Below are positions 3,827 through 34,051 of a stretch of 64,000 nt of DNA, in pieces. The notes under the pieces were generated by a model. It worked only from the letters and a program-made list of their open reading frames with translations. It had not been told where the DNA came from and searched no databases. The DNA comes from Meira nashicola (Eukaryota; Basidiomycota; Exobasidiomycetes; Exobasidiales; Brachybasidiaceae), in NCBI GenBank assembly GCA_001600355.1, contig BCJU01000001.1:3431178-3495177 (forward strand). The letters are read 5' to 3'. The translations under genes were made by a program, and so were the position numbers. Each line of letters starts with the position of its first letter. The stretch's first letter is position 1.

Positions 3827-4734
3827 CTAAGCTGATCCTGGTACTGCAGCTTTGACGGAATCTCTAACGGATTCGGCGGTTTCTTTAATAGAACGCTTTG
3901 CTTCTCTGCCTCCCATGTAATGATAACGCTGTATTAGAGGGAAATGAAGGGAAGACAACGTTATTATCAGCATACATGCATTCAAAAACATCATAGAATC
4001 AGACTAATTCTGTGTACTCACTACAAACCGTGCTCCTTGTGTCATTTGAGCAGTTGCATTGGTAAGATGGCATGCGAGTAAGAGATAATTTCTTGGAACC
4101 ACTCGCCAAGCAAAACGGGAGAATACGAGCCTATGAAGATTAAGAAAGGACGACAAAATGAATAAAAGGATGTCAGCCATCTTTTGCCGAATCAATTGAG
4201 AAGCTGGTGATTTCTTGGGCAACGTACGAATAAGAGGCAAGTGCTGCAGTCATTGGTCCAGAGATGACTTCTTCATCTTTCTTGAGATCAGCAATGGCGG
4301 CCTTTAAAAGGGAGAATAGAATGGAAGCATTAGTGATGAATATTCTCAACTCGACCTCACATTTTCGTTATACATACCAATGGTAAACCCCAGTTGGCAA
4401 CTTTTGTATAAGAAGCGCATAGGAGAGAAGAGAAGAGGAATATGTGTCAACTGATAATCCAAATAGCGTTCTACCTTTTTTTAAGCGTGCGTACCAGGTC
4501 CCCAGAAGTGCTAGTTGAGAGAATGTAAATAGGTCAGTATACGATGTCTATAACTTCAAGAAGTAACGCAAACTCACAGTACTCTAGTGATAATGAACAG
4601 AAAGGGCACAAGAAAGAAGAATATCGTCAGCACAAAACTTTCGTCATATCTCCTGCTATCCTCTTTTTTAAACGTACGAAAAAGTATTCGCGTGCGGCTG
4701 GCGACCGTAGCCAATGTACAAATGTTGAAGCCAT
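3827..4734 (-). CDS. MPC1: Mitochondrial pyruvate carrier subunit 1
   Basis: Seven exons, in coding order 4678-4734, 4578-4583, 4495-4510, 4378-4400, 4228-4301, 4022-4130 and 3827-3928, join in frame to give 128 residues. Every intron is GT-AG and 67-97 nt long. The product starts MASTFVHWLRSPAAREYFF and continues with the MPC1 signature [20 protein letters not shown], then SRFAWRVVPRNYLLLACH and LTNATAQMTQGARFV. MPC1 pairs with MPC2 in the inner mitochondrial membrane to import pyruvate. The second exon is only 6 nt (AGTACT) and supplies the Ser-Thr of the invariant STHFWGP block; the third is 16 nt. Skipping the 6-nt exon would keep the frame but delete those two conserved residues. Identity is very secure; the exon model is supported by both splice consensus and family conservation. 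Confidence 0.93.
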
Positions 4735-20914: not shown

Positions 20915-21901
20915 TCATCTTTCTCCAGCGCTACCGATTGATGTCTTGCTGAACGCATTGCTGTGGGACATATGTATACTAGCCGCAGAAGATGACTTTG
21001 AATGAATTGCTGCTCCATCAACTGATTCCCTTCCGTTTGATCCTGAAATAACTGCGATATTGGGTCGATTTGCTTGGGCAGAAAAACCATATAAACATCC
21101 CAGATATTTGGCATCGTCTATTTGACCTTCGAAATAACGCTTTCTCATTTTGAAAAACGTGCTAGCAGTCAGCAATGAATCACTTCCCGCTTGATGTTGT
21201 TGTCCAATTCGGCTCACTTGCAAATCATCCGCAACATCTTGCAATCCTCCTTTTAGCGTTTTGCAAGATCGCATGAGATACTTGATGTCATAAATACATG
21301 GGAACCATTGTCGTAGATTTTCAAAGAATTCTGTTTCTTGAGCAGGTAGAGGTAAAGCAGTGACAACTTTTAATAGATAACCGAAATCGTATCCGCTATG
21401 AAAAGTGACCCATCTAACGTCTTCAAAGAGAACTAAGCCGGATGTGATCATCAATTCACCAAAATGTTCGATATCAATCCCATGATTTTCGTGTTTATCG
21501 AAATCCAAACCTGCTTTATTCAATAAATCCAAAGATTCGGGAGCGCACATATCATCGGTCAGACTGAAGCGAAAGTTAAATTGCCAAGTGCAAATATCAT
21601 CCGGATGTTCTCCTTCTTCATCGCAAACGGTTAGACCAAGTTGAATCAGTTTAAGAAGATCGACATTACACCGAAGCGTTTGATAATGATAATCGGACGA
21701 TCCTTTGAATGTACCGATCGGACGTGCAACGATTCCCGGGAATTCAGTATCCATTGCAACATAAGGATACCTTTCTATTGCTCTCCGAAGGTTTCCCATC
21801 TCTTCTTCCACATTATCCGACCAAACTTCTCGTATTTGGGCACCGCCGTTCATCGATGAGAGTGATGTAGCCGGTGCCAATCTTTGCATCATTATGTTCA
21901 T
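20915..21901 (-). CDS. CAF1: CCR4-NOT deadenylase subunit Caf1/Pop2
   Basis: A single exon encodes 328 residues from the first ATG at 21901. Caf1 is a DEDD-family 3'-5' exonuclease that shortens mRNA poly(A) tails within CCR4-NOT. Catalytic acids are visible: Asp51 and Glu53 in VAMDTEFPG, Asp172 in FHSGYDFGYL and Asp241 in HQAGSDSLLT. Flanking blocks match the family well (EVWSDNVEEEMGNLR, YHYQTLRCNVDLLKLIQLG, WQFNFRFSL). The last 50 residues are a Ser-rich tail without clear motifs. Unlike budding-yeast Pop2, the active-site set is the canonical one, so the enzyme should be active. Confidence 0.96.
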   Translation of the reverse strand: MNIMMQRLAPATSLSSMNGGAQIREVWSDNVEEEMGNLRRAIERYPYVAMDTEFPGIVARPIGTFKGSSDYHYQTLRCNVDLLKLIQLGLTVCDEEGEHPDDICTWQFNFRFSLTDDMCAPESLDLLNKAGLDFDKHENHGIDIEHFGELMITSGLVLFEDVRWVTFHSGYDFGYLLKVVTALPLPAQETEFFENLRQWFPCIYDIKYLMRSCKTLKGGLQDVADDLQVSRIGQQHQAGSDSLLTASTFFKMRKRYFEGQIDDAKYLGCLYGFSAQANRPNIAVISGSNGRESVDGAAIHSKSSSAASIHMSHSNAFSKTSIGSAGER

Positions 21902-22217
21902 CAAATGACTATATGAGCATGGAAATGCTGTTCCTCTAACATTTATTATGGTATGTAATGGAAGAGATTATTATCGGATTTTACCCTCATTTCCAGGGCG
22001 CGTGTCAGAATTTGGCTGCCCGCCCAGATACCTAGACCTAGGCTACAGATGTACATAGTCTACACCTGTATTCCATGCACGGGCTTCATGACACTGGAAG
22101 GACGCGTGGTGGTTGATGTAAAATACATACCTATGTATATTAGAAACACCAATGTGAATCCTTCTTCATTCATAGCCACATACATATTCGTATAGTCAAA
22201 GAAAATTATCGGTCAAA
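21902..22217. other. Divergent CAF1-RPN10 promoter region
   Basis: A 316-bp spacer between divergent genes. It contains an ACGCGT box (22104-22109) and a small palindromic patch (CCTAGACCTAGG near 22031). I see no transcribed element in it. Confidence 0.4.
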
Positions 22218-23318
22218 ATGGTACTCGAAGCAACGATGGTTGTCATTGACAATTCTGAATGGATGAGAAATGGGGACTATATGCCAACTAGGTGGGATGC
22301 ACAATCTGATGCAGTTAATATCGTCTTTGATGTAAAGACGAATTCAAATCCTGAAAGCCGCGTTGGATTGATCACAATGGCGGGTAAACGTGCTGAACTT
22401 CTTGCTTCTCTCACTCAAGATATTGGCAAAATGATTGGCGCTCTTCATTCTAGTCAATTAGGTGGCCAATCCGATATCGCAAGCGGAATTAATATCGCTC
22501 AATTAGCTTTGAAACATCGGGAAAACAAATCTTTACGTCAACGAATTCTTGTCTTTGTTGGATCGCCAATTCCAGATTCTGAAGCTGATTTGATCAAATT
22601 GGGAAAAAAATTGAAGAAAAATAACGTTGCAGTTGATATTATTAACTTTGGCGAAATTGAAGAAAATGAGTCAAAATTGAACGCATTCGTCGAAAACGTT
22701 AATAGTGGAGAAAACTCTCATTTACTCACAGTACCTGCCAGCCACAAATTGTTATCAGATCAAATCATTTCTTCGCCCATTTTGATGGAATCTGATGGTG
22801 CCGGACCTTCAAATTCAGGTGCTGCTGCAGGAGGATCTGGATCCTCAAATCAATTCGAATTTGGAGTCGATCCAAGTATGGACCCGGAACTTGCTATGGC
22901 TCTACGTATGTCGTTAGAGGAAGAACAAGCACGTCAGCGAGCTGCTGAAGGAGGAAGCGCTCCAACTGAATTACCAACAGTATCAGAAAGTGCAAATGAG
23001 AGCTCATCTGCCGTTTTAGAATCAACAACGAAATTGCCAAGTGCGGGATCGCTCGTTCTTCCAGGTGCAGATGCAATTACTGGTGCAGGGAATGCTGCTT
23101 TGGATGAAGGTGAAGATGCAATGTTACAACAAGCGATAGCTTTGTCACGCGGTAATCAGGCTGGTGAAGTAGATGCAAAGGAAAATATGGACATCGATAC
23201 AAAGCATCAAGAACAAGATGAAGATGAAGAGATGGACGAGGAAGAGGCAATCGCACGAGCTATTGAAATGAGTCTAAAGGGTCAAAATGACCGGCCGACG
23301 GGTGAGGGTAGTAAATAG
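22218..23318 (+). CDS. RPN10: 26S proteasome ubiquitin receptor Rpn10
   Basis: A single exon encodes 366 residues. Rpn10 captures polyubiquitinated substrates at the base-lid junction of the proteasome. The N-terminal von Willebrand A domain spans residues 1-190 (VVIDNSEWMRNGDYMPTRW, SDIASGINIAQLALKHR, LVFVGSP). Three ubiquitin-interacting motifs follow: residues 221-240 (DPELAMALRMSLEEE), 299-312 (EDAMLQQAIALSRG) and 341-354 (EEEAIARAIEMSLKG). Budding yeast has one such motif, so three is the longer, animal-like arrangement. The gene lies immediately left of the mating-type region and marks its boundary. Confidence 0.96.
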   Translation: MVLEATMVVIDNSEWMRNGDYMPTRWDAQSDAVNIVFDVKTNSNPESRVGLITMAGKRAELLASLTQDIGKMIGALHSSQLGGQSDIASGINIAQLALKHRENKSLRQRILVFVGSPIPDSEADLIKLGKKLKKNNVAVDIINFGEIEENESKLNAFVENVNSGENSHLLTVPASHKLLSDQIISSPILMESDGAGPSNSGAAAGGSGSSNQFEFGVDPSMDPELAMALRMSLEEEQARQRAAEGGSAPTELPTVSESANESSSAVLESTTKLPSAGSLVLPGADAITGAGNAALDEGEDAMLQQAIALSRGNQAGEVDAKENMDIDTKHQEQDEDEEMDEEEAIARAIEMSLKGQNDRPTGEGSK

Positions 23319-23742: not shown

Positions 23743-23951
23743 TCAGAGAACAACGCATGTTGGTTGTAATGGAGATCCAGGGCTGATGAACACGTATGAT
23801 AGGGATAGTGAAAATGCAGAAGAGACTTTGATAAGTAACATACTTATACCAAAAATACAATGAACACTCACTTGGACTCGAAATCAACTGGAGCACTAGG
23901 AATGTTGTCACCTGGCATATCGGCTTGAGCTGTTGCGAATGTGGGGTACAT
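23743..23951 (-). CDS. Candidate lipopeptide mating pheromone precursor (a-factor/mfa type)
   Basis: Two exons (23872-23951, 23743-23782) encode 39 residues. Exon 1 begins ATG at 23951 and reads MYPTFATAQADMPG, then DNIPSAPVDFES. A GTGAGT donor and CAG acceptor remove an 89-nt intron in phase 2, after which the frame reads NPGSPLQPTCVVL and stops. The C-terminal CVVL is a CAAX prenylation box directly before the stop. Total length, the short N-terminal leader and the Pro/Ser-rich middle resemble smut Mfa precursors of about 40 residues. The gene diverges from a STE3 receptor across a spacer full of pheromone response elements. Leu at the last position is unusual, since most basidiomycete precursors end in Ala or similar; in other eukaryotes Leu favours geranylgeranyl transfer. 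Unspliced, the frame ends two codons past the donor, so only the spliced form carries the CAAX box. Confidence 0.82.
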
Positions 23952-24088
23952 TTTTATTTGTTCTGATGTTCGAGTGAGGGTGTCGATGAGGGGAATAGAT
24001 TATTCTCCTGTTCAAGGCATGTTTTTATACCTTTTTCCATACCTCTCTTTTTTGTCGTTTCCTCATACGCCTTATATCATTTCGCACT

Positions 24089-24097
24089 TCCCTTTGT
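24089..24097 (-). promoter_or_regulatory. Pheromone response element near the pheromone gene
   Basis: An exact ACAAAGGGA on the minus strand, 138 bp before the pheromone start codon. This nonamer is the Prf1 binding site in Ustilago maydis mating genes. Confidence 0.7.
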
Positions 24098-24221: not shown

Positions 24222-24230
24222 ACAAAGGGA
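24222..24230 (+). promoter_or_regulatory. Pheromone response element, opposite orientation
   Basis: An exact ACAAAGGGA on the plus strand, midway between the pheromone gene and the element array. It is the only copy in this spacer in the plus orientation. Confidence 0.65.
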
Positions 24231-24360
24231 AGTTTAGAGGAGATAGAAGAACAAATTAAAATAATTGACTAAAAAGTGAAGGGGAAGTGAAGGAGGGGTT
24301 TTTTTATTTGACCATATTTCCTTTGTTCACTTTTATTCCCTTTATTCAGTTCAATTTTAT

Positions 24361-24705
24361 TCCCTTTGTTCATTCCCTTTGTTCATTCCCTTTGTTCATT
24401 CCCTTTGTTCATTCCCTTTGTTCATTCCCTTTGTTCATTCCCTTTATTCCCTCTATTCAGTTCAGTCTTATTCCCTTTGTTCATTCCCTTTATTCCCTTT
24501 GTTCAATCCCTTTATTCCCTTTATCTATTCCCTTTGTTCAATCCCTTTGTTCCTTCCCTTGGTTCCCTTTGTTTTCACTTTTATTCCTTTGTTCTCGCTT
24601 TTATTTCCTTTAGTCGCGCCCTTAGTTCAATTTACACTACTTAATTAATTTCCTTCGTCCCCGTTTAATCCCTTTGTTCTACTTCTATTCCCTAAATCCC
24701 TTTGT
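24361..24705 (-). repeat. Array of 13 pheromone response elements built on a 13-bp tandem repeat
   Basis: Thirteen exact copies of ACAAAGGGA (read as TCCCTTTGT on the plus strand) start at 24361, 24374, 24387, 24400, 24413, 24426, 24472, 24494, 24529, 24542, 24564, 24669 and 24697. The first six are spaced exactly 13 bp apart as repeats of TCCCTTTGTTCAT. Between and after them are degenerate units such as TCCCTTTAT and TCCCTTGGT. All copies have the same orientation. The array ends 170 bp before the receptor start codon and about 410 bp before that of the divergent pheromone gene. It is best read as a shared upstream activating region that has expanded by replication slippage. Overlapping open frames through it are a by-product of the repeat. 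Confidence 0.85.
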
Positions 24706-24857
24706 CTAGTCTACTTTTATTCCCTTTTGACGTCTATTTTTTAATTCGGTTCCATTAGCGTAAATTAGTGTGTTATAATTCAACAAACAGATAGACAGAC
24801 TGGTCTTACATTCTCGCATTAATTTACGAGCCGAAATAAGCTAAAATCCTAGAATAC

Positions 24858-24865
24858 TATATAAG
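24858..24865 (+). promoter_or_regulatory. TATA box of the STE3 receptor gene
   Basis: TATATAAG lies only 10 bp before the first in-frame ATG (24875) and 52 bp before the second (24917). If transcription starts the usual 25-60 bp downstream of a TATA box, the first ATG would often be missing from the mRNA and translation would start at 24917. Confidence 0.55.
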
Positions 24866-31457: not shown

Positions 31458-32516
31458 TCAGGCGCCATACAACGTTTTCACGCTATAAACATGCACGCCA
31501 TCTTTCTTGCCGTATTCCACATCAAAAGGATCTTGAGGCGTATTTGGTTGATCGTAAAGTTCAACGTTATCGCTTTTGTATTCATATGTACTGCTAACAT
31601 CAGTTCTTGGCGTTAATGGAGGAAGTTCCAATGGATGTTCTGTTGAACCGATATCTTTTGAAGCGGAAATCTTTGGCAATTTTGCAATCTTTTGTCGGAA
31701 GATTGTTTTTCGAAAGAATGTACAGAAACCGTTCCAAATTCGAATGTTTTCTTTGATTGAATCTTCGTTGAATCCAAAAAATCTATATGAATCAAAATTG
31801 TTGTTATCAGTTTCAGCATTCATAAAATTATAATTTTCACATAAAACTTACGCAATTAATAAGAAACCGCTAACAGGAGCTGTCCAACGTGAAATTTCTG
31901 AGCTGATAAAAGCTTTGTGAGCTTCAGGTAAATCGAAAATGCTACTTGGAATACTGAGAACTTGGCCGAAACCTTCATGAACATAATTCCAAGAGACATA
32001 AGGCTTATACCAAATTCCATATTGTTGCGAAGCGAGTACTTGTTGAACAATCCACAAAGGTAAGTCTAAAATAATTTCCGTAAAACAGAGTGCCATCATT
32101 CTCAAATATCTTGATTTGTTGAGATTACTTCCAGCTGAACATAAGATAGCTGTGAATTGCTTTTGTCTTATGATGAAATGATGTACACACATACAAGCAA
32201 ATCCAAGACTTATGATAGCAACCAACGGTGGAGGAATAATACCGAGCAGAATATAAGGCCAACTGACATAAACGGCAGGATTGCAACCAATTCCTCCAAT
32301 AATATCGAATCGATGTCCTTGATAAACGATTGATAAGATTGAATAAATGATAGGAATAATGACAGAAATGAATAAGTCAAGATACAATTCCCTTCTCTTG
32401 TCTTTCGCCGATGAAGAAACGATGCGGGTGCTTGCGATCGACTCCAATTTTTTCGAAACGTACAAAACAGCGCATGGAGCGCACATGAATAACATGAAAC
32501 AAAGTAATAAAGCCTT
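31458..32516 (-). pseudogene. Second STE3-type pheromone receptor, 5'-truncated
   Basis: Two exons remain: 31852-32516 and 31458-31782, joined by a GTAAGT...TAG intron in phase 2. They encode helices 3-7 and a tail. Landmarks parallel the complete receptor: KKLESIASTR with DKRRE, IVYQGHRFDI, IIRQKQFTAIL, KSRYLRM, SWNYVHEGF and helix 7 running into FFGFNEDS. The sequence is clearly homologous but divergent, so this is a different receptor type rather than a recent copy. Upstream an in-frame TAG (32517-32519) coincides with a potential acceptor AG. It sits where the complete gene has its intron 3/exon 4 boundary. No exons for helices 1 and 2 exist in the next 1.5 kb. The first Met (32495) falls inside helix 3. 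The remaining frame has no stops or frameshifts, so the loss looks recent or the fragment may still be expressed. Confidence 0.8.
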
Positions 32517-33674: not shown

Positions 33675-33710
33675 TCCCTTTGTTTACGGATGAATCGTGA
33701 AACAAAGGGA
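33675..33710. promoter_or_regulatory. Inverted pair of pheromone response elements
   Basis: TCCCTTTGT (33675-33683) faces ACAAAGGGA (33702-33710). The palindrome extends to 10 bp arms, CCCTTTGTTT and AAACAAAGGG, around a 14-nt centre. These are the only exact copies I noticed outside the pheromone-receptor spacer. They lie upstream of the orphan 131-residue frame on one side and of an ATG at 33757 on the other. Confidence 0.65.
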
Positions 33711-34051
33711 AAATTTTGTTGAAGCAAGTATTTAAGAAAGATTTTAATAAAGACATATGTATCCTCCCTTCCTTTACAGTTCCAGGTCGAGATTCTTCTA
33801 CGCTTACGCTCAATTCAATATGTTGTGGACACTCACGCTTGAGTTTTCAAGATTTCTATGTGTCTATGTGTTTCGAATTCCGGTAAGGATCAAAATCGTA
33901 ATGCGAAAATATGGAAAAATTTCGCATTGTATTTTTTGCAACTGTCCATTTCGTGATTGCTTTCATCTACACGATTATGCCAGCCCAGTGTTCAATTTGT
34001 TAAAAGCCAGGGGTCACTTGCAAGCAGAAATGCTTCGGGATATAGACTTGT

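Follow-up and report, generated by a model that had tools for sequence, protein, structure and literature searches.

In smut fungi of the Ustilago type, the HMG protein Prf1 is described as binding pheromone response elements (PREs) clustered at the genes of both the a and b loci (PMC4466345; PMC6747018), and prf1 is itself reported to be pheromone-induced in Ustilago maydis (PMC6747018). The PREs published for this group form clusters that vary in number and orientation (PMC4466345; PMC6747018; PMC3248468), and their placement is given as syntenic across 11 a loci of Ustilaginales (PMC3248468). For Ustilaginomycotina outside the Ustilaginales, frequent linkage of Rpn10 and CAF1 to the receptor gene is reported, duplicated receptors are reported in Exobasidiales, and a duplicated receptor together with a duplicated bE gene is reported for non-Ustilaginales MAT loci (PMC7766764). 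A comparable arrangement is described in Cryptococcus, where the HMG-box factor Mat2 binds PREs upstream of the pheromone and receptor genes; the portions of that account covered here call Prf1 a distinct HMG protein and describe no array (PMC3744442). The nearest parallel for a repeated element comes from the promoter of Magnaporthe PWL2, a tandem repeat of three 48-bp units that hold a short cis-element, the corresponding factor being unnamed in the account cited. PWL2 inducibility is reported to vary with the copy number of this promoter repeat, which is strain-dependent (PMC8035637). Within the portions of the PRE and mating-locus literature covered, no tandem PRE array is described.

The locus presented here belongs to Meira nashicola and was analysed in a window of 64 kb, i.e. 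the whole stretch of DNA under study (contig BCJU01000001.1, positions 3,431,178 to 3,495,177); positions are counted from its first letter. It is probably a smut-type a locus under Prf1/PRE control, in which an upstream activating sequence common to a divergent gene pair has grown into a PRE minisatellite of unusual density (Table 1). This reading is built on what is observed in the genome, namely more sites than expected by chance, the way the genes are arranged, their synteny and a HMG-box gene that bears PREs. PRE-controlled a loci are known, and an array so dense and partly in tandem sets this one apart from those described in the portions of the literature covered. As in a U. maydis-type a locus, a STE3 gene stands beside a CaaX precursor gene, ACAAAGGGA sites lie nearby, a HMG-box gene bears PREs and further PREs are found at homeodomain (b-type) genes. 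Unlike that type, the locus packs 13 exact sites, all oriented alike and partly in a 13-bp register, into 345 bp, and it is flanked by Rpn10 and CAF1 and not by the border genes of the Ustilaginales. The linkage of these two genes to the receptor is the one reported for the MAT a loci of Exobasidium vaccinii and Meira miltonrushii (PMC7766764). Like PWL2, the locus has a fungal promoter repeat with a short cis-element in its units; in contrast with the account of PWL2, the units are of 13 bp, they contain the site of a known transcription factor and they are found at a mating locus (PMC8035637).

Table 1. Features of the a locus of Meira nashicola and its PRE-bearing HMG-box gene (window positions, except for the last line)
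Feature	Position	Strand	Remarks
CAF1-family gene	20915..21904	-	synteny marker
Rpn10-like gene	22218..23318	+	VWA and UIM domains; synteny marker
Pheromone precursor gene model, 39 aa	23743..23951	-	exons 23951-23872 and 23782-23743, splice inferred
TATA-like box upstream of pheromone gene	24024..24029	-	sequence match only
Single PRE	24089..24097	-	~60 bp upstream from the TATA-like box of the pheromone gene
Single PRE	24222..24230	+	between array and pheromone gene, outside the tandem array
Full span of PRE-like units	24318..24729	-	26 units with at most two mismatches; 13-bp and 9-bp mix
PRE array	24361..24705	-	13 exact ACAAAGGGA, single orientation; exact-word count
Six-PRE block	24361..24434	-	perfect 13-bp register, ACAAAGGGAATGA units; exact-word count and Tandem Repeats Finder
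TATA-like box upstream of receptor gene	24858..24863	+	sequence match only
STE3-type pheromone receptor, 404 aa	24917..26547	+	7 exons, splices hand-placed; PF02076
Second STE3-type receptor gene	31458..32495	-	roughly 90 N-terminal residues missing; profile match from position 73/292
PRE pair facing apart (- then +)	33675..33710	.	separated by 18 bp; lies 1.2 kb upstream of the second receptor gene
PRE-bearing HMG-box gene	C1:3315241-3318039		four exact PREs at the 5' end

The sequence-only reading had announced 13 exact ACAAAGGGA sites between 24361 and 24705, six of them in perfect 13-bp register. The recount gave the same 13, all on the minus strand, and the same six, starting at 24361, 24374, 24387, 24400, 24413 and 24426. 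The remaining sites start at 24472, 24494, 24529, 24542, 24564, 24669 and 24697, likewise on the minus strand, with successive start-to-start steps after the block of 46, 22, 35, 13, 22, 105 and 28 bp. A period of 13 with 17.0 copies was reported by Tandem Repeats Finder over positions 24359-24565 (score 218). Degenerate units were indeed found beside the exact ones: 26 PRE-like units with at most two mismatches were counted between 24290 and 24760 (13 without mismatch, 8 with one and 5 with two), and no PRE-like unit of opposite orientation with at most one mismatch was detected in the same interval. The tract combines the 13-bp unit ACAAAGGGAATGA with a shorter 9-bp unit, AAAGGGAAT; the two units share AAAGGGAAT, and their mixing yields the common variant ATAAAGGGA. 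The two extra sites claimed nearer to the pheromone gene were also located, one on each strand, and the 965-bp intergenic region between the pheromone and receptor genes holds 15 exact PREs in all.

The number of exact ACAAAGGGA sites near the mating genes is beyond chance, as expected of a Prf1-type PRE. The 64-kb window contains 18 of them, against a mean of 0.71 and a maximum of 3 in 100 shuffles. Shuffles preserving the dinucleotides of the array itself (n=2000) gave a mean of 0.07 and a maximum of 2 sites for 13 observed, and those of the 965-bp intergenic region (n=2000) a mean of 0.04 and a maximum of 2 for 15 observed. Over the whole genome (17.88 Mb, 20 contigs), ACAAAGGGA occurs 361 times, compared with 131, 71 and 95 occurrences of three control words of the same dinucleotide content. 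At this genome-wide rate, 0.007 sites would be expected in 345 bp. For the two PREs that the intergenic region holds apart from the repeat, 0.0125 would be expected in 620 bp at this rate (Poisson P ~8e-5, for a region chosen post hoc). Among the same-strand PRE pairs separated by a gap of 2-62 bp that were listed for the whole genome, 11 of 20 belong to the array; pairs on opposed strands with the same gap face apart in two cases and face each other in three. Single PREs elsewhere in the genome were mapped from the first 100 of the 361 genomic sites. PREs also adjoin gene families without known mating role. Since the element is common genome-wide (361 sites) and stands beside such families, one site alone means little and the word by itself is no proof of pheromone control.

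The divergent pheromone-receptor pair of the sequence-only reading was recovered, a STE3 gene and a CaaX precursor gene model flanking the array. The receptor matches PF02076 with 222 bits (E 9.8e-66), and the search for resembling solved structures returned no match for this protein. The precursor model consists of an 80-nt exon opening at the ATG at 23951 and a 40-nt exon, separated by a GT-AG intron of 89 nt, and its predicted product ends in CVVL, a CaaX box like those of fungal lipopeptide pheromones. As a general rule, a CaaX box with a final leucine favours geranylgeranyl over farnesyl. The precursor model had no match in Pfam, and a genome search with it for a second pheromone gene returned the known first exon as its sole match. 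The gene with VWA and UIM domains and the CAF1 gene are both no more than about 4 kb away from the receptor. The locus thus combines the traits of a smut-type a (P/R) locus: an intact STE3 gene, an adjacent CaaX precursor (as a gene model) and Rpn10/CAF1 linkage. Together with the PREs, these traits place the fungus in the smut lineage.

The density of the array could also have arisen without selection. The tandem part would then be an unselected minisatellite, produced by slippage that multiplied one PRE-bearing stretch, and regulation would be left to a few copies or to the two single sites. This explanation, which is compatible with a PRE-controlled a locus for part of the array, has a real but minor chance of being correct. 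It agrees with the identity of six adjacent units, spacer included, and with the mixture of 13-bp and 9-bp units. Outside the perfect block, a wraparound alignment gave matches to the unit at 204 of 271 PRE positions and 81 of 123 spacer positions (odds ratio 1.6, p = 0.07), the C of ACAAAGGGA being conserved least among the PRE bases. A preferential selection of PRE bases over spacer bases was therefore not significant outside the block, and part of the repeat may be a neutral expansion. It had also been claimed that a 13-bp period puts neighbouring sites on rotating faces of the DNA; the arithmetic is right, each unit turning by ~86 degrees at 10.5 bp per turn. The 13-bp period is detectable among the 13 sites (p = 0.02). 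Helical phasing of these sites was absent at 10.0, 10.5 and 11.0 bp, which gives no support for a face-aligned assembly and is again in line with an unselected minisatellite. What such a minisatellite explains less well is the persistence of exact PREs in the diverged half of the array despite altered spacers and the irregular steps given above, a point that is itself weak because the units were chosen for exactness.

All 13 array PREs are oriented along the transcription of the pheromone gene and away from the receptor gene, which may speak against a second and still less likely explanation, namely that the array serves one gene only, receptor or pheromone, and that the other gene uses its own sites. 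The latter finds its arguments in the distance of 212 bp between the near end of the array and the receptor ATG and in the fact that the pheromone gene has its own PREs (24089 and 24222). Finally, the array is most improbably a pyrimidine-rich low-complexity tract (104 C and 175 T of 345 on the plus strand, i.e. 81% C+T) that excludes nucleosomes or forms unusual DNA and matches the PRE incidentally, given that shuffles of the array dinucleotides yield at most 2 PREs versus 13 and that PREs also occur beyond the tract, both elsewhere in this intergenic region and at the HMG-box and homeodomain genes.

A smut-type a locus under Prf1/PRE control supposes a Prf1-like HMG protein in the genome, as the sequence-only reading had pointed out, and a candidate is present: a PRE-bearing gene with a HMG box of the SRY/SOX class, located ~138 kb from the array. 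The genome contains 8 HMG-box matches, two of which share one open frame; at the 7 others, no PRE was found closer to the box than about 1.5 kb. The probability of four or more PREs at one of eight HMG loci is about 6e-6 (Poisson), a rough value because the sites cluster. The protein has one HMG_box stretch (residues 313-383), whose best matches among solved structures are a SRY/HMGB1 chimaera, SOX-30, SOX-5 and LEF, which belong to the sequence-specific class. Two of the four PREs (positions 4311 and 4458 of locus L024) fall inside the longest open frame, which starts at 4540, and all four are upstream only with a later start ATG, such as the one at 4243; the true start of the gene may thus be a later ATG. 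Another HMG gene, in L018, resembles the same class by eye and is without PRE in its own locus. Just downstream of the PRE-bearing gene (L024, 157-1406), two similar small proteins are encoded in tandem and look secreted by eye.

The homeodomain genes are carried by the same contig as the array, 2.7 Mb away, so that the arrangement is not the strictly bipolar one of E. vaccinii. Four open frames with homeodomain matches are contained in ~7 kb (L033, C1:6149500-6159000), as a divergent pair and two in tandem, an arrangement that resembles a duplicated b-type locus. Two of the homeodomain genes are preceded by exact PREs, which begin 93 and 221 bp upstream of the respective starts, in agreement with the published presence of PREs at a-locus as well as b-locus genes (PMC4466345). 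A peroxiredoxin-like gene, recognized by eye, stands between the homeodomain frames, and three exact PREs occur within 200 bp just past the cluster (L035 405-598, C1:6159204-6159397).

Other PRE-rich places were encountered. A run of minus-strand genes, related by eye (L022 and L023, C1:3234000-3248500), carries PREs, singly or in twos, some 90-215 bp ahead of four open-frame starts; one of its genes is at the Pfam cut-off for Rhomboid (22.8 vs 22.6 bits) and a second one tested had no match. Related genes on contigs C7, C7 and C6 (L025, L026 and L027) each have three or four PREs upstream; the two tested gave a weak GIY-YIG match (16.2 and 16.4 bits, cut-off 22.6), and the L026 copy appears decayed by eye. 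A PRE pair facing each other adjoins repeated F-box-like genes, identified by eye (L040, C3:2674500-2680500). Two or three exact PREs are found close together at each of L028, L029, L030, L031, L032 and L039.

The window contains a second STE3-type receptor gene that, unlike those of the MAT a loci published for Exobasidiales and further groups outside the Ustilaginales, is without its 5' part. Its frame encodes 319 aa from the ATG at 32486, another ATG being present at 32495, and it is 37% identical to the intact receptor over a 287-column alignment. Searches by tblastn with the intact receptor and with its first 95 residues returned no N-terminal exon in the window. The gene looks like a relic, or like a second type of receptor gene whose 5' part has been lost. 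The PRE pair upstream of it is one of the two such divergent pairs (gap 2-62 bp) in the genome. The stretch between this pair and the truncated receptor was considered as a dispersed repeat and turned out to be single-copy, its own copy being the only match in the genome. Near the truncated receptor, an ATG at 33757 opens with M-Y-P-x-F, by eye, which resembles the intact precursor; it was rejected as a pheromone gene for want of a convincing CaaX end. A 30-aa single-exon ORF from 33911 ends in CSIC, a CaaX pattern; its body is mostly hydrophobic and it was not counted as a pheromone. The remaining single-exon ORFs with a CaaX pattern in the scanned stretches were judged by eye to be due to chance. 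A further STE3 candidate at C1:4675843-4676154 was discarded as a weak match (21.6 bits, below the cut-off of 29.2).

Taken as a whole, the sequence-only reading held for what can be read from the DNA itself, namely the exact PREs, the divergent STE3 and CaaX neighbours, the class of the HMG-box gene and the rotation arithmetic; its regulatory part (factor binding, activation of both genes, feedback and dose effect) would hold by analogy with the U. maydis pathway. By this analogy, the 965-bp intergenic region would act as an upstream activating region common to the pheromone and STE3 genes, in which the site of a Prf1-like HMG factor would have been multiplied, partly by tandem duplication, to 13 exact and 13 degenerate copies in addition to the two single sites. 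Binding of pheromone by the receptor would switch on a MAP-kinase cascade, which in turn would activate the Prf1-like factor and lead to occupancy of the PREs. Their occupancy would then increase transcription of both genes as well as of the factor's own gene, making a positive feedback. A larger number of sites would be expected to raise occupancy at low factor levels, and with it basal and induced output; for such a dose effect, the PWL2 promoter offers a precedent among fungi (PMC8035637).

It is conceivable, if rather doubtful, that the PRE minisatellite works as a length-variable dial, its copy number setting the gain of the Prf1-like feedback switch and changing fast by slippage. Were this true, mating sensitivity would differ between strains without any change in protein. 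The wiring of PREs to the a locus, the HMG-box gene and the homeodomain genes is extended here to a fungus whose a-locus flanks are not those of the Ustilaginales. With its 13 exact PREs in one orientation and a spacing that passes from regular to irregular, this natural promoter would make it possible to ask how the number and spacing of sites set mating-switch gain, and whether changes in repeat number can be a route by which mating sensitivity evolves.
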